This document shows positions 8,212 to 43,663 of a DNA stretch of 64,000 nt, one piece after another. The position numbers were made by a program, and so were the translations under genes. The stretch is from assembly GCF_002210285.1 (NCBI RefSeq), contig NZ_MWQE01000001.1:310001-374000 (forward strand), read 5' to 3'. This DNA comes from Fibrobacter sp. UWR2. Lineage in GTDB: Bacteria > Fibrobacterota > Fibrobacteria > Fibrobacterales > Fibrobacteraceae. The notes under the pieces are model-generated. The model was given only the letters and a program-made list of their open reading frames with translations, ran no database searches and was not told where the DNA came from. How positions within the stretch are numbered: the first letter of the stretch is position 1; every line of letters begins with the position of its first letter.

Positions 8212-9147
8212 ATGATGATGCTCTCTAAAATTAGACTTACGAAACTAGGCAAATTCATCTTTGCTATCGGTTGCCTATTTCCTATTGGAATTGCGATTCT
8301 TGTTCCGTTGCTTCTTTTAGGTGGGATGAAGATTAGGGAAATAGATGAAAAATGGATTAATGAAGGTGTTTCGGATGTATTTGAAAAAAAGTCTTTTTCA
8401 TATGATAAAGTATTTGTATTTGCAAATGAAGTGACAATAAAGGATCATGCAAAGCAATACTCCATTATGGGTTCCTTTGGAAAACAATGGCAGGTAAGTC
8501 TGAATACAAACGATGGCGGTAAAACTTGGACGTTGACAGGTGCTGACACAGCAGTGTATTTTAATGAAAAAATAGATGAATGGAATTATTATGGCGATGC
8601 CGTTTTAGGTGGAAATTTTGGAAAAATATACGTGAGTAAACAAGATTCTTTTTCAAACGAAAAAACGATTATACTAGAAGAATTGAATGGTCCCAGTTCA
8701 AATTTGTCCGGCTATTGTAAAAGATGGGGAAAAATGTATGCCCAAAATAGCAACGACTGGGTTGTTTGTGGATATGATGATGCGCCATCGTCAATCCATG
8801 AAGTTCGTATTATACATAGATCAGAAGGTGTATTTAAACTCCATACATCTTTTCCAAATAAATGGCACTTTTTTCGTTTAGAATATATGAAACCGTCTGA
8901 TTTCTATGTTAATGGAAATTTAATGATTGGAATTTTTAGATTTCATATAGGAACAGGAACTTTACTTCACTATCTATATTATAGCGTTAATGGAGGAGAA
9001 ACATGGGAAAATGAAAAAATACCAGTTTTTTCACACGAACGGTTGTTGGTGACAAAAGATTCAATTGTTGTTCTCGGACTAAAAGAAATAAACGATAAAA
9101 ATAGGGTAAAAGCCACCATCCTCACGATGCCAATACCGAAAAACTAA
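8212..9147 (+). CDS. Low-GC membrane-anchored protein with BNR (Asp-box) motifs
   Basis: This 311-residue protein has an N-terminal membrane segment (about residues 14-38, I-F-A-I-G-C-L-F-P-I-G-I-A) and an extracytoplasmic remainder. Two Asp-box-like motifs are visible, N-T-N-D-G-G-K-T-W near residue 101 and S-V-N-G-G-E-T-W near 260, which in BNR/sialidase-like proteins mark beta-propeller blades. No catalytic sialidase residues are evident. The gene is much more A/T-rich than its neighbours and uses AT-ending codons, suggesting transfer. Three ATG codons in a row (8212, 8215, 8218) leave the exact start open. It follows the tRNA-Glu terminator. Function unknown. Confidence 0.7.
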   Translation: MMMLSKIRLTKLGKFIFAIGCLFPIGIAILVPLLLLGGMKIREIDEKWINEGVSDVFEKKSFSYDKVFVFANEVTIKDHAKQYSIMGSFGKQWQVSLNTNDGGKTWTLTGADTAVYFNEKIDEWNYYGDAVLGGNFGKIYVSKQDSFSNEKTIILEELNGPSSNLSGYCKRWGKMYAQNSNDWVVCGYDDAPSSIHEVRIIHRSEGVFKLHTSFPNKWHFFRLEYMKPSDFYVNGNLMIGIFRFHIGTGTLLHYLYYSVNGGETWENEKIPVFSHERLLVTKDSIVVLGLKEINDKNRVKATILTMPIPKN

Positions 9148-28047: not shown

Positions 28048-29877
28048 TTACTCGACGGTCACGCTTTTCGCGAGGTTGCGCGGCTGGTCCACGTCGTTGC
28101 CGCGGAGCACGGCGATGTGGTAGGCGAGTAGCTGGAGTGGCACGCAGGTCACGATTGGCATGAGCATGGGGATGGTCTTGGGCACCTTGATCAGGTGGTC
28201 GGCAAACTCGTCGAGCGGCTGGCAGTCTTCCGTGGTGACCGCGATGACACGGCCGCCGCGTGCCTTGATTTCGCGGACGTTGCTGATGACCTTGTCGAAC
28301 AGCGCATCCTTCGGGGCGATGACGACTACGGGCATGTTCTCGTCGATAAGGGCGATTGGCCCGTGCTTCATTTCGGCGGCGGGGTAACCTTCGGCATGGA
28401 TGTAGCTGATTTCCTTGAGCTTCAATGCGCCTTCCATGGCGACGGGATAGTTGTAGTGGCGGCCCAGGTACAGGAAGTTGTTCGCCTTCACGTACTGGTG
28501 CGCGATGCCCGCAATCTGGTCCGAAAGCTTGAGCGTCTGTTCCACCAGGCCGGGGAGTTCCTGCATTGCCTTGACGATGTCGGCGCCCGACTCAAAGCTG
28601 AGCCTGCGCTGCCGGCCGAGCAAGAGAGCAATCATGGCGAGGACGGTCACCTGGCTTGTGAACGCCTTGGTACTTGCGACACCGATTTCGGGACCGGCGT
28701 GCAGGTACACGCCGCCGTCGCTTGTGCGGGCGATGGTGGAGCCCACGCCGTTACATATGGCAAGCGCGGTGGCGCCCTTCTGCTGAGCTTCCTTGAGGGC
28801 AGCAAGCGTATCGGCGGTTTCGCCGGACTGGCTGATGGCGAGCACGAGCGTGCCCGGCTTGATGATGGGGTTCCTGTAGCGGAATTCGGAGGCGTATTCG
28901 ACTTCGACGGGGACGCCGGCGAGGTCCTCGATCATGTACTCGCCGACCATGCCCGCGTAGTAGCTCGTGCCGCAAGCGGTAATGATGATGCGGTTGATGT
29001 TCCTGAGTTCCCTGATGTTCGTGTCGAGGCCCGCGAGCTTGGCGTTCCCTTCGGCGCTGAGCAGGCGGCCACGCATGGTGTTACGCAGCACTTCGGGCTG
29101 TTCGAAGATTTCCTTGAGCATGAAGTGGGCGAACCCGCCCTTCGCGACGGCGTCTGCATCGAACTCCACGTCTTTGACTTCTCGTTGCACTTCGTGGCTG
29201 TTCATGTTGACGATGGAATAGTCGCCGTTCTTTATCTGCACTACGTCGTTGTCATCCAGGTACACGACCTTCTGCGTGTGGTTGATGATGGCGGAAACGT
29301 CGCTTGCAAGGAAGAATTCCGAGCCATTCCCGATGCCGAGGATAAGCGGGCTGCCGCGGCGTGCCCCGATAAGCGTATCGGGCTCGTCCATGCAGACGAC
29401 TGCAAGGCCGAAAGTGCCCTCGACCAGGGCGAGGGCCTTTAACACCGCGGCCTTCAGGTCGCCCTTGTAGTAGCGGGCGATAAGGTGTGCCACCACTTCG
29501 GTATCGGTTTCGGACTTGAACTGGATGCCTTCGGAAACGAGCTTTGCCTTCAGGGTTGCGTAGTTCTCGATAATGCCGTTATGGACGATGGAAATTTTTC
29601 CGTCGAAACTCGTGTGCGGGTGTGCATTTGCGATGGTCGGTGCGCCGTGGGTTGCCCAGCGGGTGTGCGCGATTCCGGTATGGCCGTGGATAACCTTCGT
29701 CTTCAGGCAGTCCTCGAGGGCCGAAATCTTCCCTGATGCACGGACGACGCTTATGCCGTCTTTCTCAATGACGGCGATTCCCGAGCTGTCGTAGCCTCTG
29801 TATTCCAGTTTCTTGAGGCCTCCGACCAGGATGGGCAAAGCTTCGTTTTGACCGATGTAACCGACTATACCGCACAT
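28048..29877 (-). CDS. glmS: Glutamine-fructose-6-phosphate aminotransferase
   Basis: GlmS makes glucosamine-6-phosphate from fructose-6-phosphate and glutamine, the entry to UDP-GlcNAc for peptidoglycan and lipopolysaccharide. The 609-residue protein is full length: N-terminal glutaminase beginning M-C-G-I-V-G-Y-I-G with the nucleophile Cys2, H-T-R-W-A-T-H-G-A-P near 70-80, then two SIS isomerase domains with I-T-A-C-G-T-S-Y-Y-A-G, A-I-S-Q-S-G-E-T-A-D-T and the C-terminal P-R-N-L-A-K-S-V-T-V-E. No glmS ribozyme was recognised in the about 140-nt leader. It is monocistronic with its own terminator. Confidence 0.97.
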   Translation of the reverse strand: MCGIVGYIGQNEALPILVGGLKKLEYRGYDSSGIAVIEKDGISVVRASGKISALEDCLKTKVIHGHTGIAHTRWATHGAPTIANAHPHTSFDGKISIVHNGIIENYATLKAKLVSEGIQFKSETDTEVVAHLIARYYKGDLKAAVLKALALVEGTFGLAVVCMDEPDTLIGARRGSPLILGIGNGSEFFLASDVSAIINHTQKVVYLDDNDVVQIKNGDYSIVNMNSHEVQREVKDVEFDADAVAKGGFAHFMLKEIFEQPEVLRNTMRGRLLSAEGNAKLAGLDTNIRELRNINRIIITACGTSYYAGMVGEYMIEDLAGVPVEVEYASEFRYRNPIIKPGTLVLAISQSGETADTLAALKEAQQKGATALAICNGVGSTIARTSDGGVYLHAGPEIGVASTKAFTSQVTVLAMIALLLGRQRRLSFESGADIVKAMQELPGLVEQTLKLSDQIAGIAHQYVKANNFLYLGRHYNYPVAMEGALKLKEISYIHAEGYPAAEMKHGPIALIDENMPVVVIAPKDALFDKVISNVREIKARGGRVIAVTTEDCQPLDEFADHLIKVPKTIPMLMPIVTCVPLQLLAYHIAVLRGNDVDQPRNLAKSVTVE

Positions 29878-33764: not shown

Positions 33765-34517
33765 TTACTGGTCTACCTTTATGCCCTTCTTGTCGAGCAA
33801 GATACGGGGGATGCCGCCTTCCATCGGGTTTTCGACGACGGAGATGGTTTCGAGGCTATCGCACTGGGCGAGCGACTCGGGGAGTGTCGAAAGCTGGTTG
33901 GCGTCGAGTACGAGTTCGCGGAGCTTCTTCAGGTTGCCAAGTTCGGAGGGAACGGCACCGAGGCTGTTGCCGGACACCATGAGGATTTCGAGATTCGAAA
34001 GTTCTCCGAGCGTTCCGGGGATAGATGTCAAGTCGTTGTTGTCGAGGTAGAGCTTCACGAGGCTTTCCATCTTGCCGATGCTTGCGGGAATTTCGGAAAG
34101 CATGTTATCGTGCAGGGAAAGCTTTACAACTTTTTTCCAGTTTCCAATTTCTTGCGGCAGGTCGAGCATCTGGTTCTTGGCGATGTTCACCGTGCGGAGG
34201 TTTACAAGGTTGCCGACCGAGGCGGGCAGTTCCGAAAGGCTGTTGTAGCCCAGGTACAGGTGCTCGAGTTTCTTGAGGTCGCCGATAGTCTCGGGGAGTT
34301 CCATCAGGTCGTTTTCGCTGATGGAAAGGCTCTTCAGGTTCTTGAGCTTGCCGATTTCGTCCGGAATCTCGACGAGTTTGTTGCGGTCGAGGTTCAGTTC
34401 TTCGAGTGTCTCGATTTCAAAAAGTTCGGGCGGAAGGAGCCTGAGTTCCTTCTGGGAAAGGTCGAGCGAGGTGGCCTTTTCGGACTTGGCTTTTGCAATA
34501 ATATCGAGCAGATTCAT
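33765..34517 (-). CDS. Leucine-rich repeat protein
   Basis: This 250-residue protein consists almost wholly of about nine 23-residue leucine-rich repeats of the bacterial type (L-x-x-L-P-x-x-I-G-x-L-x-x-L-x-x-L-x-L-x-x-N-x), from about residue 20 to 240. There is no signal peptide, membrane segment or attached enzyme domain, so a cytoplasmic protein-interaction scaffold is likely. Asn ladders and regular P-x-x-I-G segments indicate a single continuous solenoid. It lies directly upstream of the S41 pair on the same strand, separated by about 50 nt of repeat-like sequence. Partner unknown. Confidence 0.88.
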   Translation of the reverse strand: MNLLDIIAKAKSEKATSLDLSQKELRLLPPELFEIETLEELNLDRNKLVEIPDEIGKLKNLKSLSISENDLMELPETIGDLKKLEHLYLGYNSLSELPASVGNLVNLRTVNIAKNQMLDLPQEIGNWKKVVKLSLHDNMLSEIPASIGKMESLVKLYLDNNDLTSIPGTLGELSNLEILMVSGNSLGAVPSELGNLKKLRELVLDANQLSTLPESLAQCDSLETISVVENPMEGGIPRILLDKKGIKVDQ

Positions 34518-34783
34518 AAAACTCTCCTAGACAATAGACTTACACTGTAAATCATAGTATTTTTCCCCGATTTTGCGGCAACGGACGTAAAAAAATACGA
34601 AAAAAACAAAAATCTATACATGTGAGCACTGCTTTTTGCCCTTTATATTGGTGTTTTTACAAAAGATTTGTTATTTTTTTACTCAAATTGGTGTTTTGAA
34701 ACTATTTTTAATGTGCGAAATACCATGCTACATTCATATATGTATATATATGCTTTGTCGCAAGTATAATAATTGAGGAAAAA
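34518..34783 (+). promoter_or_regulatory. AT-rich control region of the AIPR-like gene with 11-bp direct repeats
   Basis: This 266-nt spacer holds two exact copies of ATTGGTGTTTT at 34647-34657 and 34687-34697, exactly 40 bp apart (close to four helical turns). A TATAAT lies at 34765-34770, very near the ATG at 34784, and GAGGAA provides a ribosome binding site. The repeats may be operator half-sites; the promoter position is not clear. Confidence 0.5.
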
Positions 34784-36676
34784 ATGGAACTAACAAAATC
34801 GCAGGAACGCCGCTTGGCATTTGTCGCTAGCCTCTTGAGTCTCAACGCTAATGATCCTAACGACCGAATAAAGGCACTCCGGCATCTGAATCTAGACGAA
34901 AACGCCTGTTTCCACGGATTCCAGTATTCTCAGGGCTTCATGGAATTCTTTATCTTCCTGGATGAGGATACTCCGCTTGAAAAGGTTGTCGCACACCTGA
35001 ATTCCGACCTGAAACAGTTGCAGATTGCGGTGTTCCGCACAAGCGACCCCACAAACCCGTTTTTCCTGTCGCTCCGCGAAGAAGCAGACCCGTGGGACGT
35101 GAAAAAGATTTCTGACGGCGACGAAGATGAAGATGAAGACGCTCCGGCAAGCCGCCCGTACATGGAAACACTCCAGATTACCGTGCTCCGCACCAAGGCG
35201 AGCCGTGACCTGACTGACTCCGAACTGGAACGCACCCTCAAGGATATGCGCCGCAAGCTCGGCATCTGGAAGAACGAAGTGAAGGCGAAACTCGAGATTA
35301 TCGCCGAACACGACGACCTTACCCGTGACCTCCGCAGCGCCGATGACAAACTCGAAATTGTCATGGAATCCGAACCGCTCCACCTCACTAGCGATCATGG
35401 CGAACTCTTCCTCGGTTTCTGCCCGATCCGCACGATTTTCGACTACCACGTTGCCCTCGGTAAGCGCCTCAAGACGAAGCACAACATGGCTATCGTCAGT
35501 TCCAACATCCGTACTTACCTCGGTAACCTTACCCACACGAACGCGGCCCTCATCGATGCCTTCCAGACCATGGAACGTAACGACGACGAAAACGTGAACG
35601 TGGACGATTTCCCGTTCCTGCACAACGGTATGACCCTCACGGGCGATGACCTGCGCGCCAAGGAACGCGACGGCAAGAAGGTGCTCGTCATCGAACGCCC
35701 GAAGATCATCAACGGTGCCCAGTCCCTCTTCACTTACGAAACCTATGCGAAGAAGAGCAAGAAGCCCGTGAACCCGATGGTTCTCGTGAAGGTCGTTGTG
35801 CCGTACCCCGGTGCCGACAACTTCCTGAACCAGGTGACCATGGCCAACAACCGCCAGAACCCGGTGTTCAGCTACCACCTGCGTGCAGCTGACGACCTGC
35901 AGTTCTTCATCTGGCAGCGTTACCAGGAAGAAGGCTTTACCTACGTTTACAAGGATGGCGTGCGCCTCAAAGCACGTACCCGTAAGCTCGAAGTGCGCAT
36001 GCGCCCCGAACTTGCCAAGACCCTCTTTATGATGGACGGCAAACTCAGCGAATGCCGCAGCAGCGACTGCATCTTCGACAAGGAAACCCTGTACCAGCGT
36101 TGCTTCGGCGCGTTCGTGCGTGTTTCCCCGGACAAGGAAAAGGACTTTGTACGCAAGACCATCGCCTTCACGAAGGCTTGGCAGCTCCTTAGCCGCCTCC
36201 CGATCAAGATCCGCAAGGTGACTCCGGGCAAGGGCGTGTCTATCGAAGCTAACGACGATAACCCGCTGACCAAGATTACCTGGAATGGCCGTCTTGAAGA
36301 CAAGTTCATCTTCCGTAGCGCCGTGAAGGACCTCGTTGTGGCTCTCGCGCTCAAGCACTGGCTTGTGTACGGTGACCCGATCCAGGACTTCGAATGGCTC
36401 GTGGAAAACGAACTGAACTTCAACGAATCCATCCTCAAGTACGCTTCCAAGATCTATACGGAAGACCTGAAGGGAATCCTTATCAACGAATTCAAGGACA
36501 ACACGGCGTACTACGACACCATCACCACTATCGACAAGGATAGCGGCGAATCGGTGGAACGTCGCCTGTGGAAGGGCTTCGCCAACACGGCGACCTACGA
36601 AAAGATGATGGATCTCCTGGTGAAGAAGAACCCCGCATGGGCGAAGGTCCGCGGTGGCATCGAGATGTTCATCTAG
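34784..36676 (+). CDS. AIPR family (abortive infection phage resistance-like) protein
   Basis: This 630-residue protein resembles the AIPR family, named for proteins linked to abortive phage resistance, whose biochemical role is not established. The core lies at about 237-320: V-S-S-N-I-R-T-Y-L-G-N, then F-P-F-L-H-N-G-M-T-L-T (the family F-x-x-x-N-N-G-I-T pattern with His in place of the first Asn) and P-K-I-I-N-G-A-Q-S (family P-x-I-V-N-G-C-Q-T). The N-terminal 200 residues hold an acidic spacer (D-G-D-E-D-E-D-E-D-A near 111-120). No nuclease or ATPase motif is seen. Codon use matches highly expressed host genes, unlike recently acquired defence genes. It stands alone with its own control region and terminator. 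Confidence 0.7.
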   Translation: MELTKSQERRLAFVASLLSLNANDPNDRIKALRHLNLDENACFHGFQYSQGFMEFFIFLDEDTPLEKVVAHLNSDLKQLQIAVFRTSDPTNPFFLSLREEADPWDVKKISDGDEDEDEDAPASRPYMETLQITVLRTKASRDLTDSELERTLKDMRRKLGIWKNEVKAKLEIIAEHDDLTRDLRSADDKLEIVMESEPLHLTSDHGELFLGFCPIRTIFDYHVALGKRLKTKHNMAIVSSNIRTYLGNLTHTNAALIDAFQTMERNDDENVNVDDFPFLHNGMTLTGDDLRAKERDGKKVLVIERPKIINGAQSLFTYETYAKKSKKPVNPMVLVKVVVPYPGADNFLNQVTMANNRQNPVFSYHLRAADDLQFFIWQRYQEEGFTYVYKDGVRLKARTRKLEVRMRPELAKTLFMMDGKLSECRSSDCIFDKETLYQRCFGAFVRVSPDKEKDFVRKTIAFTKAWQLLSRLPIKIRKVTPGKGVSIEANDDNPLTKITWNGRLEDKFIFRSAVKDLVVALALKHWLVYGDPIQDFEWLVENELNFNESILKYASKIYTEDLKGILINEFKDNTAYYDTITTIDKDSGESVERRLWKGFANTATYEKMMDLLVKKNPAWAKVRGGIEMFI

Positions 36677-36698
36677 TCGCTCTTCTAAAGTATCGAAA

Positions 36699-36733
36699 AC
36701 GCCTGCGGTTCTTGGACTGCAGGTGTTTTTTTT
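36699..36733 (+). terminator. Terminator of the AIPR-like gene
   Basis: An 8-bp stem (36699-36706 with 36719-36726, one G-T pair) is followed by eight T residues, 20 nt past the stop. Confidence 0.85.
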
Positions 36734-36811: not shown

Positions 36812-39800
36812 TTGCTATTTAGAAGGTTCTTACATAGAACCCCGTCGGGTTTTTTTGCCCTTTGCCTAACGGCATTCGGCATCGCGTGGTCTCAGGGAGA
36901 TGCTCCCGTGAGCGTCTCCGCAGATGCGGAATCTGCGGACTCGACTGCGGCTGACCCTGCGGAAACGGAATGGCAGCCTACGCTGAACTACTTCCCGCTG
37001 CCCTCGTCGGCGACTCCGTTGAATAGCCTTCTGCCGTTTGGCGGTGTGGGTGCATCTCCCCGCCTGATGAAAGAAACGAAGGGGCAGGTGTTCACGCACG
37101 ACATCAACATGGCGACGCGTGAACTCGACGTGAGCGAGAAACGCGTGAACTCGGTGTCGAGGGATACGACGACGCTCTGGTCGGCACACTATCCGGAACT
37201 GACAGACTACGTGGCGGACATGTACGACGTGGGCCGCAAGAACCTGTGGCTCAATAGCCTTATCGGGCAGCGCGATGAAGGCTACGAGGCGCCCGAGACG
37301 GGCTCCATGTTCGACATCACGATTCCGGTGAACATGCCTGCATGGATGAAGACCTTCGGTTTCGACAAGCCGAAACTGATGCTGCAGGGAACGATGAACG
37401 TACGCCTCAAGGGGTACGGGGAACTGGATGATGCCGAGGGTAGCACCAAGACTAGTCTCTGGCCGTCGCCTTCGCTCGAGTACGAACCGAGCTTTATGGT
37501 GAAGGGAAAGATTGGCCCGTATATCACGGTAGAGGTCAACAACGTGGAAAGTGGCCTTGGTGTGCAGAACCAGGTGCGCGTGGTATACGAGGAATCGTTC
37601 AAGGGAGAATTCGAGGACTACATACTGCAGCGTGTCGAGGCGGGTACGACTTCGCTTTCGCTTACCGGTACGGAACTTACGGGTTACTCTGAAAACCACC
37701 AGGGCCTGTTCGGTATCAAGGCTGACTGGAAGTTGGGTGACTGGAGGCTTACGACGATTGCCTCGCAGGATGGTGGAAGCCAGGAAGAATACACCATCAA
37801 CGCCTCGGAGACCACTACGGAATTCCAGGTGCTCGACAAGCAGTTCATATCTTACCGCTACTACTTCTTGAACCATGAGGCGAGGAATGCCTACATCAAT
37901 GCTGCGATTGCGGGCCGCACCACCTCTAGTTACCCGGCGACGAACCTCAAGCTCTACAAGAGAAGTGCGCTGAACAACTCGAAGGATGTCCTCGACAACA
38001 TTAAGGTCGTGTACACGACTCCGAGCGGCAAGACCATCGAGAAGAAGGTCGAACGCATGGTGGAAATCCCCAGTGGCGAATATACCTACGACCAGAAGAC
38101 GGGTATCTTGAAGGTGAACGGCGTAACACGTACGACACTCTTGGCAGCAAGCTGGAGCGACGACGGAACGGGCCGTACCGGAACGACGATTAACGATGGC
38201 GCCAAGATTGTGTTGATTCAGTGGGATGCGGAACTTGCGGAACTGACCGATATCAGCAAGCTCATGCTCCGTAACGTCTATTCCATCGGCATCACCGATG
38301 CGAGTGCCTCGAGCTTTGTGCTGCGCATGAAGAACAAGTCCGGAGTGGCGGGGTCGTTCCTCAAGACGATTGGTGTCGCGGACACTTCAACGGGTAGTCC
38401 GCTGGTGAGCGACGCTACGATTTTCAAGAAGGATGCGAACGGCAACTACACGGGCGAAATGTGGCTCCCGTGTAAACCGCTTTCGGAGTATTCGGGCGCG
38501 AATGCGACAGAGCGTGCGCGCACGAACTGCTTGGAACCGTTGCGCCTGCTCGATACGACAAACGCTGTCTCGCAGCTCTATACGCTTCCGGTTTACAACC
38601 TGAACCGCTACACGAGCCAGTTCTATTTTGAATCGGTTGGCAAGCGCCGTAATTCTACGATTAGCGTGCGTGACCCGAACTCGAGCTATTCCGTGAGCGG
38701 TAGCGCCTGTATGGATATTTCGCCGGGTACGGAAAAGCTTACTGCGGGTTCTACCGTACTTACCCGCGGCACCGACTACGAGGTGAACTACGAACTCGGC
38801 CAGATTGAACTCTTGAGCGAGCGCGCCCTTGACCCGAATAAGGAAATCAAGGTCACCTTTGAATGTGAACCGCTTTTCGAGATCGACAACAAGCTCTTGC
38901 TGGGCGCGCGAGCGGAATTGCCGCTGGAACGTTACGGGTTCGGTACGGGTTCCGTATTCGGCATTACCGCCCTCTACAAGAGCCAGAGCACTACGGCCAA
39001 GACCCCGACTCTCGGTAACGAACCCTTCTCCAGTTTCTTGTGGGGCATGAACCTGCGCCTGCAAGATACAGTCCAGGCTCTTACCGACCTCGTGAACATG
39101 ATTCCGGGTATCAATACCGAAGCCAAGTCCAGCTGGCGCTTCGAAGCGGAATTTGCCGGCAGCCGCCACAATGCGAATACCAGTGACGATGCCGAGGCGC
39201 TTGTCGAAGATTTCGAGGCGACGTCGAACGGCCTTACGTACCCGCTGTCGAGACTTTCGTGGTACCATGCGTCTCCTCCGGGCGGCGTGGCGAGCAACCC
39301 TTCGACATATATCGAGAACCAGGACTATCGTCACAAGGGCGAGTTTATCTGGCACAGCAATAATACCGAACTCTACAAGTACATCTACCCGAACGTCGGT
39401 AACTCCGACGTGGATAACCAGCACCTGACCGTACTCAAGATGACGCTCCGCGCCAACGACAACTTGGCGGGAAATTCCTGGGGTGGCGTGATGAGGCCTA
39501 ATAGCGCCTACTATCAGGACATGAGCCAGATGAAGTATATCGAGGTGGTGGCCCGCGGTAACGTGGGATCGATCTTCCTCGACTTGGGGCAGGTGAGCGA
39601 AGACCTTTCCATTAATGGCGAAGAACCTAACGGCTACTACAACGGTGAAAACGAACTAGGCTCGACGACTGCGCTCCACGACAATGGTCTTGACGGAAAA
39701 TCGGGTGACGAGGAATCCCGAACCGTATGGGACTGCCGTATTTCGGGCTGCGAGAAAACGGTGTGGAACTCGACCAACTCGGGCGCCGTAACCGATATTG

Positions 39801-42800
39801 CATTGGATAACTTCGACGAGGACCTGGACGACGACAGCGACCCGCCGGTCACCATCAACGGTACGGAAAACAACTCCGGTGAACGTACGTACGATACCGA
39901 GGATATCAACAAGAATGGCTCGCTCGATACCGACATCAACTTCGTACGCTACCGCATCGACCTTTCGGATACGGACAGGACGAATTTCGAAGAACTCCGG
40001 AATGGATGGCGCAAGTGGCGTATCCCGCTGAACCAGTACGACACGATTGTATCTTCGGCGGGTAGCGACTACAAGTCCATCTTGGCCCAGTCCCTGTATA
40101 CCCGCTTGTGGATTGGCAAACTGAATCCGGGTGTTGCGGAAGCAAAGGTGCAGATTGTGAGCCTTGCCGTGCTGGGTAACGCCTGGGAAGAAACGACGGT
40201 CGCCGACCTGTACAAGACTAGCTCGACGGAACATTCCCAGATTGTGAGCGTGAACGGGAACGAGACCACGATATCGGAGAACGTGTCTTCGTCGGATACG
40301 ACGTATGTGAGGGTTTCGACCATCAATAGCCGCGAAGATGCGAATACGTATTTCAAGTCACCGAACACCAAGACGGAACGCGATTCCGAGACGAACGCCC
40401 CGCTGAAGGAGACTGCTCTTAAACTAGATTACCAGAATATGCGGCCGGGCCAGGAAGTAGGTGTGACGCGCATATTCGAGACCGACAAGAAGGACCTCTC
40501 CTCGTACAAGTCATTGAAGATGGAAATCCACTACACGACGCCCGCGAAGACTGTCCCGATCAGGTTCGCCCTGCAGTTCGGTTCCGGTTCTCTAGACGGT
40601 TCCAGCGATTACTACGAATGGAGTTTCCGCCCGGTAAAATACGACGGTTCTTCGTGTGAACGCGAACAGGACTGCCACGAAGAAAACTGGCTTGCGAACG
40701 CATTCGCCATGAATGTCTCGGACTTCTCCGACCTGAAGCAGGGAAGGCGCCCGCCGTTTGTGGAGCCCGTGGTGAAGGAACTCGGAGGCGACCGCGAGGA
40801 AAGACTCCGCCTGGTAGGTAACCCGACCGTTACGAACATTGACTGGATGCGCTTCGTGATTATTGCGGACTCGAGTGCATCTGCCGATGACCTCGAGGGT
40901 ACCTTCTGGATTGATGACTTGCGCCTTTCGGACATGGATACGGAATGGGGCTACGCGGCCCGTACCTCGGCTCAGGTGAACTTCGCGGACTTCCTCTCTG
41001 TTTCCGGTGCCGTGCGTTACCAGGACGGAAACTTCGCAACGCTCAAGACAACGGGCGGGTCTCCGAAACCGAAACTTTCGCAGGCGGCATCCCAGCTCGA
41101 TGTATCGGGCGATGTGTCGATTAGCCTGAACAAGTTCCTCAACGATAGCCTCGGATTCCATATTCCGCTCAATCTCGGTTACAGGAGTTCTACGAAGCGC
41201 CCCTACATGAAACCTTCGGATGACCTGACCCTTGACCGCAGTGGATTTGGCGAACTCACGAAGGACATGTTCCAGAATGAACTTGCCGTGACATCGGGTA
41301 AGGAAGAACAGAAACTTCGTGACGGTGCACAGTCCAAGGGTTACGAATCGTACACGCGTGAAAAGAACTTCAGCATAAGCTATAGCAAGAATTACAAGGC
41401 GTCGGATTCCAAGGTGGGCGAGGCGCTCTCGCAGATCTTCCTGGAACGCCCGGCGGCAAGTTACTCCTTTAGGCAGTCGGAAGGCCGTGCGACAACTACG
41501 GCGGACTCTACGTATTCCTACCATACGATGCTTGAATACAAGTTGGGAACCTTTAGCCTGTTCAAGTTGAAGCCCTTCGAGAAACTGGCGAAGTCCGAGA
41601 ATTCGTTCCTGAAGGCCCTTGCGAAGACGGAACTTGAACCGTGGCCGCAGACCTTTGACTTGACCCTGTTCGACTTCAACTACGTGCGTTATGTGAACCA
41701 GGTGCGCGACCCCGATTTCGTGGAACCGCAGGTCGACAAGGTCGTGACCTATACCGCAGATTTGACCCACAAGCTGAATATGCGCTGGAACATCCTTTCG
41801 TTCCTCTCTACGAGTTACTCCTTGAATATCAAGCGTGACATGTATGGCGGCGGCGATAGGGAAGGGTTCGTGAAGGAAAACTTCTTCTCGCCCGATGAAG
41901 GCGGCCTGTTCGCGAGCGGTTACGTGTTTGACTTCGACCATACCGACAGGAAGGTCTATGTGTCGCACGACAGCCTGGTCATCATACCGACCGATACGGT
42001 GGCGCGCACGAATGCTGCCGGCGTGAAGCAGACGATAGACATGTCGAACCCGGATTCCTATGAGATTCGTTACGATACGACGGTGTTCTACAAGGTCGAT
42101 AGTGTGGGGCATCGCGAGTATGGCAAATCTTACGGTATCCTCCGTAACGAACGTTCTAGGCAGCAACAGTTCAAGGTGAGTTTCAACCCGCGCCTTATAC
42201 CCTTCTTGCCGTTCAATGCAAACTTCACCTCGGATTTCAACCAGCAGAAGACGATTCCCGATGCCTTTGATTTCATGGACCAGAATAACCTCGAAAAGAA
42301 CTACTGGACCATTTCGCAGACGAACCGTTTTGAATTCAGCCCGACGCTCAAGATTATCGACTTCCTGAAACTCTTCGGTGACGAGTCCAAGGTGGTGAAA
42401 CTCTTCGAGAAGATCAAGTGGCGCGAAGTCCGCTTCAACTGGAACGCAAGTACCAATACCATCGGTGAAAACTTCACTCTTGCCCAGCTCTACGAACAGC
42501 AGGGCGTGTCTCCGCTGCAATATTACCTGTACGGCCTCGGCCTTGGGAATGGCTACCGCAATCGTGGCCTCTGGAATATCGTCTCGGGCGACATGGGGCT
42601 CACTTCCCGCGGTGACTTCGAAAGGTTTGGCCAGTACCGCAACAGGGATGTCGATACGCTTGTGTACCAGGGTAATTTCCGCCATGCCGTGTCGCGCAGT
42701 TTCCAGATTGGTACGGGCATTACGCTCCCGATATGGGATATCGGCCTTACGGGTGATCTGCAGTGGAAGGAAGACTTCTCGCAGTCCCGTGAATACCCGC

Positions 42801-43663
42801 TATACACAGATACGACTACGGTGTGGCCCAAGATTGGAGTCGGTGTCTCTGTCCCCAACTTTGCACAGCGCATATCGTTCCTGAACAGTTTCAGGAGCGT
42901 GAGTACGACCCACAGGTTCGATTTTACGAAGACGACTACAGTGAAGCCTTTCCAGAGTGCCGAAGATTCCTGGGGCTACCAGATTAACTTCAACCCGCTC
43001 GTCCGTATCACGTTCCTCACGCAGAAGAACCTGAAGATTGAAAATAGTGTGCGCCTGAAGATCGAGACGACCGATCGCCGCCCGAAGGAAGAAGTCATTG
43101 GGCTCCCCTGCTGGCCGGATTCCCTAGGCAACATGACCGATACCACGGATTACTTCTGGGAAACTCCGTGGATCCATACGGCGCTGTTTAACGATTTCGC
43201 CATCAATGTCGGCGACGACTTTACGATATCTTACCCGCTCAAGCTCAAGCGCGGGTTCCAGCTGTGGAAATGGTACTTCAAGCTCGAAAACAACGTGGAC
43301 CTCAAGCTTACCGCGGGCTACGACTACAACAAGACCATCCGCAAGGAATACAAGCCTGTCAACGGGCAGGATTATAACATGTGGAACAAGGAGAGCGGTA
43401 CCGATGGCGTGTATAAGCAGTGGAAATTCGATTCCCAGGACTATACGGCCTACAATCCTGAATTGAAGTTGACGGACCGTACCGTTCCTTCTCGCACGCA
43501 TGAATGGTTCATCCGTCCGAGTGCTGGCTACCAGTTCAACAAGATGGCCTCGATGAGCGCCTACATCGAATACCGCCAGATTCACGAGAAACTGGATGAC
43601 GAAACTCCGCACCTCCGCCAGATCCTGCAGTTCGAACTGGCCCTGATGCTGAAGTTTAACTAA
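36812..43663 (+). CDS. sprA: SprA/Sov-type Type IX secretion outer-membrane translocon
   Basis: SprA (Sov) forms the giant outer-membrane beta-barrel through which Type IX cargo leaves the periplasm. This 2283-residue protein matches its usual size. After a signal peptide (about 8-28, ending A-W-S-Q-G) the N-terminal region shows F-D-I-T-I-P-V-N-M-P-A-W, L-x-L-Q-G-x-M-N-V-R-L-K-G and K-G-K-I-G-P-Y-I-T-V-E-V, a block typical of SprA. Amphipathic strands rich in aromatic residues extend to the C-terminus, which ends L-A-L-M-L-K-F-N as for a barrel closing strand. The only usable start is a TTG at 36812. It is monocistronic. Several likely T9SS cargoes (pectinases, mannanases) lie in the same window. 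Confidence 0.88.
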   Translation: MLFRRFLHRTPSGFFALCLTAFGIAWSQGDAPVSVSADAESADSTAADPAETEWQPTLNYFPLPSSATPLNSLLPFGGVGASPRLMKETKGQVFTHDINMATRELDVSEKRVNSVSRDTTTLWSAHYPELTDYVADMYDVGRKNLWLNSLIGQRDEGYEAPETGSMFDITIPVNMPAWMKTFGFDKPKLMLQGTMNVRLKGYGELDDAEGSTKTSLWPSPSLEYEPSFMVKGKIGPYITVEVNNVESGLGVQNQVRVVYEESFKGEFEDYILQRVEAGTTSLSLTGTELTGYSENHQGLFGIKADWKLGDWRLTTIASQDGGSQEEYTINASETTTEFQVLDKQFISYRYYFLNHEARNAYINAAIAGRTTSSYPATNLKLYKRSALNNSKDVLDNIKVVYTTPSGKTIEKKVERMVEIPSGEYTYDQKTGILKVNGVTRTTLLAASWSDDGTGRTGTTINDGAKIVLIQWDAELAELTDISKLMLRNVYSIGITDASASSFVLRMKNKSGVAGSFLKTIGVADTSTGSPLVSDATIFKKDANGNYTGEMWLPCKPLSEYSGANATERARTNCLEPLRLLDTTNAVSQLYTLPVYNLNRYTSQFYFESVGKRRNSTISVRDPNSSYSVSGSACMDISPGTEKLTAGSTVLTRGTDYEVNYELGQIELLSERALDPNKEIKVTFECEPLFEIDNKLLLGARAELPLERYGFGTGSVFGITALYKSQSTTAKTPTLGNEPFSSFLWGMNLRLQDTVQALTDLVNMIPGINTEAKSSWRFEAEFAGSRHNANTSDDAEALVEDFEATSNGLTYPLSRLSWYHASPPGGVASNPSTYIENQDYRHKGEFIWHSNNTELYKYIYPNVGNSDVDNQHLTVLKMTLRANDNLAGNSWGGVMRPNSAYYQDMSQMKYIEVVARGNVGSIFLDLGQVSEDLSINGEEPNGYYNGENELGSTTALHDNGLDGKSGDEESRTVWDCRISGCEKTVWNSTNSGAVTDIALDNFDEDLDDDSDPPVTINGTENNSGERTYDTEDINKNGSLDTDINFVRYRIDLSDTDRTNFEELRNGWRKWRIPLNQYDTIVSSAGSDYKSILAQSLYTRLWIGKLNPGVAEAKVQIVSLAVLGNAWEETTVADLYKTSSTEHSQIVSVNGNETTISENVSSSDTTYVRVSTINSREDANTYFKSPNTKTERDSETNAPLKETALKLDYQNMRPGQEVGVTRIFETDKKDLSSYKSLKMEIHYTTPAKTVPIRFALQFGSGSLDGSSDYYEWSFRPVKYDGSSCEREQDCHEENWLANAFAMNVSDFSDLKQGRRPPFVEPVVKELGGDREERLRLVGNPTVTNIDWMRFVIIADSSASADDLEGTFWIDDLRLSDMDTEWGYAARTSAQVNFADFLSVSGAVRYQDGNFATLKTTGGSPKPKLSQAASQLDVSGDVSISLNKFLNDSLGFHIPLNLGYRSSTKRPYMKPSDDLTLDRSGFGELTKDMFQNELAVTSGKEEQKLRDGAQSKGYESYTREKNFSISYSKNYKASDSKVGEALSQIFLERPAASYSFRQSEGRATTTADSTYSYHTMLEYKLGTFSLFKLKPFEKLAKSENSFLKALAKTELEPWPQTFDLTLFDFNYVRYVNQVRDPDFVEPQVDKVVTYTADLTHKLNMRWNILSFLSTSYSLNIKRDMYGGGDREGFVKENFFSPDEGGLFASGYVFDFDHTDRKVYVSHDSLVIIPTDTVARTNAAGVKQTIDMSNPDSYEIRYDTTVFYKVDSVGHREYGKSYGILRNERSRQQQFKVSFNPRLIPFLPFNANFTSDFNQQKTIPDAFDFMDQNNLEKNYWTISQTNRFEFSPTLKIIDFLKLFGDESKVVKLFEKIKWREVRFNWNASTNTIGENFTLAQLYEQQGVSPLQYYLYGLGLGNGYRNRGLWNIVSGDMGLTSRGDFERFGQYRNRDVDTLVYQGNFRHAVSRSFQIGTGITLPIWDIGLTGDLQWKEDFSQSREYPLYTDTTTVWPKIGVGVSVPNFAQRISFLNSFRSVSTTHRFDFTKTTTVKPFQSAEDSWGYQINFNPLVRITFLTQKNLKIENSVRLKIETTDRRPKEEVIGLPCWPDSLGNMTDTTDYFWETPWIHTALFNDFAINVGDDFTISYPLKLKRGFQLWKWYFKLENNVDLKLTAGYDYNKTIRKEYKPVNGQDYNMWNKESGTDGVYKQWKFDSQDYTAYNPELKLTDRTVPSRTHEWFIRPSAGYQFNKMASMSAYIEYRQIHEKLDDETPHLRQILQFELALMLKFN

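Follow-up and report, generated by a model that had tools for sequence, protein, structure and literature searches.

The AIPR gene and its domains

AIPR proteins are known as products of accessory, mobile defence genes, and their mechanism is unclear. The window analysed here, a stretch of 64,000 nucleotides at G000:C1:310001-374000 in the genome of Fibrobacter sp. UWR2, holds a gene of this family that the initial annotation described as solitary and written in the codons of its host, which raises the question whether it belongs to defence at all. Here we show that its product is an AIPR family member by sequence, and that its anatomy, context and evolution set it apart from the defence forms that have been described. 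We consider the chances even that this is a domesticated AIPR with a host function and a DndB-like mechanism; for its host-core, non-mobile status alone, we regard the case as a strong one.

In the span first given to the gene (34518-36676), position 34518 is the start of the intergenic region beside a divergent leucine-rich-repeat (LRR) gene. The coding sequence starts with an ATG, occupies 34784-36676 on the forward strand, and encodes 630 amino acids with full-length orthologues across the Fibrobacteraceae; we refer to it as the core AIPR gene. Pfam AIPR (PF10592) matches residues 240-391 with 59.7 bits against a cut-off of 25 (E 5e-16), although only profile positions 3-150 of 308 are spanned, which is less than the whole domain. 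The two motifs by which the protein had originally been recognized as an AIPR are present as HNGMTLT (residues 280-286) and PKIINGAQS (residues 306-314), and the best fold match of its model in a viral library is likewise an AIPR protein (E 2e-9), so that this identification stands.

Three parts can be distinguished, all encoded on the forward strand. The N-terminal domain (residues 1-109, 34784-35110), delimited by model secondary structure and by alignment of core proteins (A2), has no profile match; a DUF695 match at residues 32-93 scored under its cut-off and was set aside. It is followed by an acidic linker of low confidence (about residues 110-127, 35111-35164; pLDDT <50) that is variable among orthologues. 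The AIPR core domain (residues 205-393, 35396-35962) was defined by an alignment of AIPRs (A7) and by hhalign, which gave 98.8% against short AIPRs over residues 206-389, and 84% against the core of the long form. Ten positions are invariant in all 76 aligned AIPRs, and the core protein keeps every one of them: N241, R243, F276, N281, G282, N310, G311, Q313, N356 and Q358.

Distribution and inheritance

In our survey of 168 genomes of the phylum, 80 of which are Fibrobacter, the core-type AIPR was found in nearly all of the latter, and in 29 further Fibrobacteraceae genomes spread over eight genera. Full-length orthologues are 88-98% identical within Fibrobacter, and 53-83% in the eight other sampled Fibrobacteraceae genera. 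Such near-universal presence throughout Fibrobacter is what would be expected of a housekeeping gene. The three Fibrobacter genomes that gave no Pfam match are assembly breaks or genomes too incomplete to judge: in G146 the gene is present at a contig end, in G137 the contig breaks 3.3 kb past the syntenic FKBP gene, and G023 is 80% complete and misses the LRR and SprA neighbours as well. In G138, the gene is interrupted by contig ends. The orthologue of the metagenome-assembled G141 (L409 / L104, G141:C8, CADCGB010000008.1) changes frame between residues 330 and 334, which is probably an assembly error, and possibly a real pseudogene.

Two genera of the family, g16 and g21, were searched and the core AIPR was not found; in the GlmS tree they branch off together before the rest of the family (support 90/93). 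Because they lack the gene and branch first, its gain after their split and its retention since then fit best. Furthermore, every genus is monophyletic in both the AIPR and the GlmS trees, and as such the core AIPR gene is vertically inherited. A viral scan with the core family returned no relatives. We also observed that the genome of the window carries a second glucosamine-6-phosphate synthase (G000:C6:155582-157411), 76% identical to the copy at 28048-29877 of the window; in each of the 27 other genomes that matched this enzyme, a single copy was seen.

Evolutionary rate and codon use

Within Fibrobacter, identity of the core AIPR is mostly 88-95%, versus 86-93% for GlmS, and to the nearer genera it is 79-83%, versus 75-78%. 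To Fibrimonas this order is reversed, with 53-54% for the core AIPR against 70-71% for GlmS, and a very long stem branch, showing that the rate changed strongly along the stem that separates Fibrimonas from the remaining genera. It is due to this divergence that a single function across the whole family is not certain. The dN/dS of 0.04-0.10 indicates strong purifying selection, and when this genome is compared with sampled stretches of G159, the core AIPR ranks 10th among the 95 reciprocal best hits (81% versus a median of 54%).

The host-like codon use reported initially is well borne out. With a codon adaptation index (CAI) of 0.719, computed against ribosomal-operon genes, the gene ranks 33rd among the 596 ORFs that an 864-kb sample of the genome contains (top 6%), alongside enolase, RecA and RpoB, whereas the genome median is 0.52, and the twelve accessory AIPRs that we scored in Fibrobacteraceae genomes reach only 0.27-0.41. 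The protein is thus probably well expressed, as had been proposed, judging from its codons only.

Could such a gene nevertheless be a constitutive, family-wide innate defence, in which a stand-alone AIPR would always sense phage DNA or activity, and would have been fixed for being cheap and useful? We hold this to be possible, if somewhat unlikely. Defence genes are accessory and show fast turnover, whereas the core AIPR gene is near-universal, slow-evolving and vertical. Its high codon adaptation also sets it apart from accessory AIPRs within the Fibrobacteraceae, it lacks the nuclease signature described below, and a comparison with 72,556 plasmids and 50,697 phage records gave no match at E 1e-3. 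On the other side, PADLOC labels the protein AbiU, PHROGs matches it to an Abi family, RM and Mza loci commonly contain AIPRs (PMC2292703, PMC9523054), and the nearest relatives to come out of our searches are encoded at the head of type I-E CRISPR-cas operons. The initial annotation had left housekeeping and constitutive defence side by side; near-universality, vertical descent, purifying selection and codon adaptation support the former, as far as sequence can tell.

These nearest outside proteins, L127 and L128, join the core clade with support of 99/94, a placement that carries a long-branch warning, and their genes stand first in type I-E cas operons. At L190 (G056:C30, 2830-12225) and L191 (G080:C189, 3511-12052), AIPR genes head type I-E cas operons with cas3, cas8e and cas7. 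These two AIPRs are 72% identical to each other and stem from two families of Fibrobacterota, and their nuclease signature is degenerate (Y-G-V/I-N, with no QxK). An AIPR of this type may be an accessory of type I-E CRISPR. No CRISPR array was found within 20 kb of the cas-linked AIPRs, and a viral scan with the CRISPR-linked pair gave no relatives. A tie of the core gene itself to type I-E CRISPR was ruled out, as type I-E Cse1 occurs in only 4 of 111 genomes of the family.

The N-terminal region and the nuclease signature

In short AIPRs, which we took from viral contigs and other genomes, the N-terminus bears a D-G-I-D...Q-S-K signature, in which D66, D70, Q85 and K87 are invariant over 11 aligned proteins (A5), and a published AIPR protein has a PoNe (PD-(D/E)XK) domain at its N-terminus (PMC9708380). 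Long AIPRs carry AIPR_N (PF22879). The D...QxK signature of the PoNe type is missing from all 18 aligned core proteins, Pfam finds no AIPR_N in the core protein, and a profile comparison of its first 205 residues with the nuclease domain of short AIPRs and with AIPR_N showed no similarity.

So what exactly does this N-terminus contain? The model predicts a helix (25-33), two strands (44-49 and 52-59) and a further helix (65-84), a helix-hairpin-helix order that may recall the hairpin of short AIPRs, and the invariant H44 and D60-E61 of the predicted hairpin (44-59) stand where short AIPRs have D...QxK. Together with D75 and K77, these residues are invariant over 18 core proteins, down to 53% identity. 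Since H44 and D60-E61 could form an altered active site, the protein may still have nuclease activity. An active enzyme with such an altered catalytic site (H44, D60-E61, D75, K77), for instance a nuclease or a nucleotide hydrolase acting on a cellular substrate, would account for both the invariance and the resemblance of residues 25-84 to the D...QxK hairpin. However, the N-terminal 205 residues resemble neither of the AIPR nuclease-type domains by profile, and D75 and K77 are predicted to sit on a helix rather than a strand, so that we consider this enzyme improbable.

The same region also differs in its codons, with a CAI of 0.47 in the first 100 (34784-35083) versus 0.78 in the rest of the gene (35084-36673). 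This lower start was seen in all 14 sampled Fibrobacter orthologues, and in most other genes the step is smaller (mean difference -0.08, sd 0.09).

Fold and proposed mechanism

The AlphaFold2 model of the core protein was built from 76 sequences and reached a pLDDT of 72.9 and a pTM of 0.50, while a model from 18 sequences (pLDDT 53) was set aside. Searches of the PDB by sequence and by fold (the latter at E 1e-3) gave no significant match. Beyond the AIPR protein, the viral library yielded, among others, weak fold matches to a DndB-like protein of DNA-sulfur modification (probability 0.98) and to N-terminal domains of GmrSD (0.80-0.85). GmrS and the DGQHR domain of DndB have been linked to the ParB/sulfiredoxin fold, including the nucleotide site of that fold (PMC4619093), the N-terminus of DndB has been assigned to the AbiU1/AIPR family (PMC3506569), and DndB is a DNA-binding transcriptional regulator, of its own operon (PMC4507180).

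From these fold matches and these three studies we propose a DndB-like mechanism, the biochemical steps of which we infer. The AIPR core would work as in DndB and GmrS, with a ParB/sulfiredoxin-like pocket formed from the N-G-x-Q and N-x-Q motifs, and this pocket would bind nucleotide and couple it to the binding of DNA or nucleoprotein. Without a canonical nuclease domain, the core protein would then serve constitutively as a regulator or scaffold associated with DNA, and not as a suicidal effector. The pocket, suggested by the weak fold matches and the published analysis of DndB and GmrS (PMC4619093), remains putative because the model matches no solved structure. On this analysis, the core protein is probably a DndB-like DNA/NTP-binding protein without a canonical nuclease signature.

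Genomic neighbourhood

The gene had been said to sit alone, and this describes its surroundings well: upstream lies the divergent LRR gene (33765-34517, reverse strand; Pfam LRR and synteny), downstream a terminator and then the gene of an SprA-like protein (36812-43663, forward strand; Pfam SprA_N 6e-21), which is syntenic in part of the genera, and no defence gene is nearby. Across the genera compared, neither a defence nor a mobile context was found in the neighbourhoods, nor did we find a gene of known function that accompanies the core AIPR throughout the family. The LRR gene is its most constant neighbour, adjoining it in most of Fibrobacter and the near genera, and SprA adjoins in some; elsewhere, the neighbours are GH3 and a polyprenyl synthase in Fibrimonas, and SurE in MS499-38. 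That the core AIPR is a partner of the LRR or SprA (type IX secretion) genes, as this adjacency might suggest, is highly improbable, given that neither accompanies it in Fibrimonas or MS499-38, that outside the genus the LRR protein retains about 54-65% identity versus 79-83% for the AIPR, and that divergent, separate transcription and the terminator set the genes apart.

Elsewhere in the window, an ORF at 8212-9147 has the lowest codon adaptation (CAI 0.29, GC3 0.27), and is possibly a recent arrival.

Upstream region, translation start and terminator

In the upstream region we identified a conserved 16-bp element, TTTGAAACTATTTTTA (34695-34710, forward strand), which is a probable promoter element of the core AIPR gene as far as its sequence conservation indicates. 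It occurs with at most 2 mismatches in all 77 Fibrobacter upstream regions (61 exact, versus 0 of 77 in shuffled controls), 37-100 bp ahead of the start codon of the orthologues, while every other sampled upstream region shows at least 3 mismatches. In the other genera of the family, where upstream regions have diverged, the element was not found.

The paired 11-bp repeats to which the initial annotation drew attention do exist: ATTGGTGTTTT occurs exactly twice in the 64 kb, at 34647-34657 and 34687-34697 on the forward strand, 40 bp apart, with the 3' end of the second copy overlapping the TTTGAAACTATTTTTA element. Their conservation in orthologous upstream regions had been named beforehand as a test, and here the proposal fails, since among 103 such regions the exact pair is present in this genome only. 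A further region contains one exact copy, and 95 show none, even when one mismatch is allowed. Moreover, when these 266 bp were shuffled under a dinucleotide model, 4.2% of the shuffles contained an exact direct repeat of at least 11 bp, as did 5% of 97 sampled intergenic stretches of the genome; in such an AT-rich stretch the pair is only mildly unusual, and near chance. As an operator, the ATTGGTGTTTT pair was thus ruled out, and the conserved element is the 16-bp TTTGAAACTATTTTTA.

A Shine-Dalgarno-like ribosome-binding region, TTGAGGAAAAA (34773-34783, forward strand), is kept in nearly all Fibrobacter orthologues. Behind the gene, the strong terminator noted earlier could be confirmed as an intrinsic terminator at 36695-36732 on the forward strand, with a 16-bp stem at 36695-36730 (-22.7 kcal/mol, z -6.2) and a T run.

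A defence family probably in the service of the host

Taken together, these features speak for a function that is neither suicidal nor mobile: the gene lacks the nuclease signature, is inherited vertically, evolves slowly, and lies in neutral neighbourhoods. Since the gene is fixed, slow-evolving and probably abundant, and lacks the nuclease signature, it was probably recruited to an everyday function of the cell. The ancestor of most Fibrobacteraceae would have acquired an AIPR gene once, fixed it, and turned it into a host function. A more specific version seems to us unlikely, namely that the AIPR domesticated in the Fibrobacteraceae was CRISPR-linked and non-canonical, and that it became an abundant and perhaps essential protein, NTP-dependent and associated with DNA, whose function is chromosomal (global regulation, or organisation of the nucleoid or chromosome). 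A gene in a passage of PMC8406330 could be the core AIPR gene, as far as that passage goes.

If true, domestication would make this a clear case of a defence protein family giving rise to a housekeeping gene, and the 'abortive infection' annotation of such genes can mislead. A family-core AIPR that keeps the AIPR core without the nuclease signature amounts to the two protein halves being separated in nature, and provides a route to learning what the AIPR core itself does.

Comparison with known systems

The cas-operon AIPRs (L127, L128) are the sister group of the core protein, align with it by profile over 256 columns, and carry no canonical nuclease signature either. However, they share only about 25% identity with it, are encoded with cas3, cas8e and cas7, and are sporadic. 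The short AbiU-type AIPRs, with their PoNe/PD-(D/E)XK N-terminus, have the core motifs N-x-R, F...N-G, N-G-x-Q and N-x-Q in common with it, as well as the Pfam and PADLOC AbiU matches, whereas the core protein lacks D-G-I-D...Q-S-K, and is family-core, vertical and codon-adapted rather than mobile. The Mza (MORC-Z1-AIPR) systems also occur in Fibrobacter: L188 (4961-14310, genome G127) is an Mza-type operon of Z1/MzaC, DUF4420, AIPR/MzaE, a cytosine methylase and an HATPase, and L189 (G126) is similar to it in gene sizes and order. Their MzaE, a long form with AIPR_N (PF22879), shares the AIPR core, but the core protein has no AIPR_N match, and no Z1, DUF4420, methylase or MORC-type neighbours. 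Finally, the likeness to DndB (DGQHR) and GmrS (DUF262) lies in the viral-library fold matches and in the N-G-x-Q motif, analogous to D-G-Q-x-R, while the core protein differs from them in having no DndB match in Pfam or NCBIfam, no dnd neighbours, and no GmrS partner domain.
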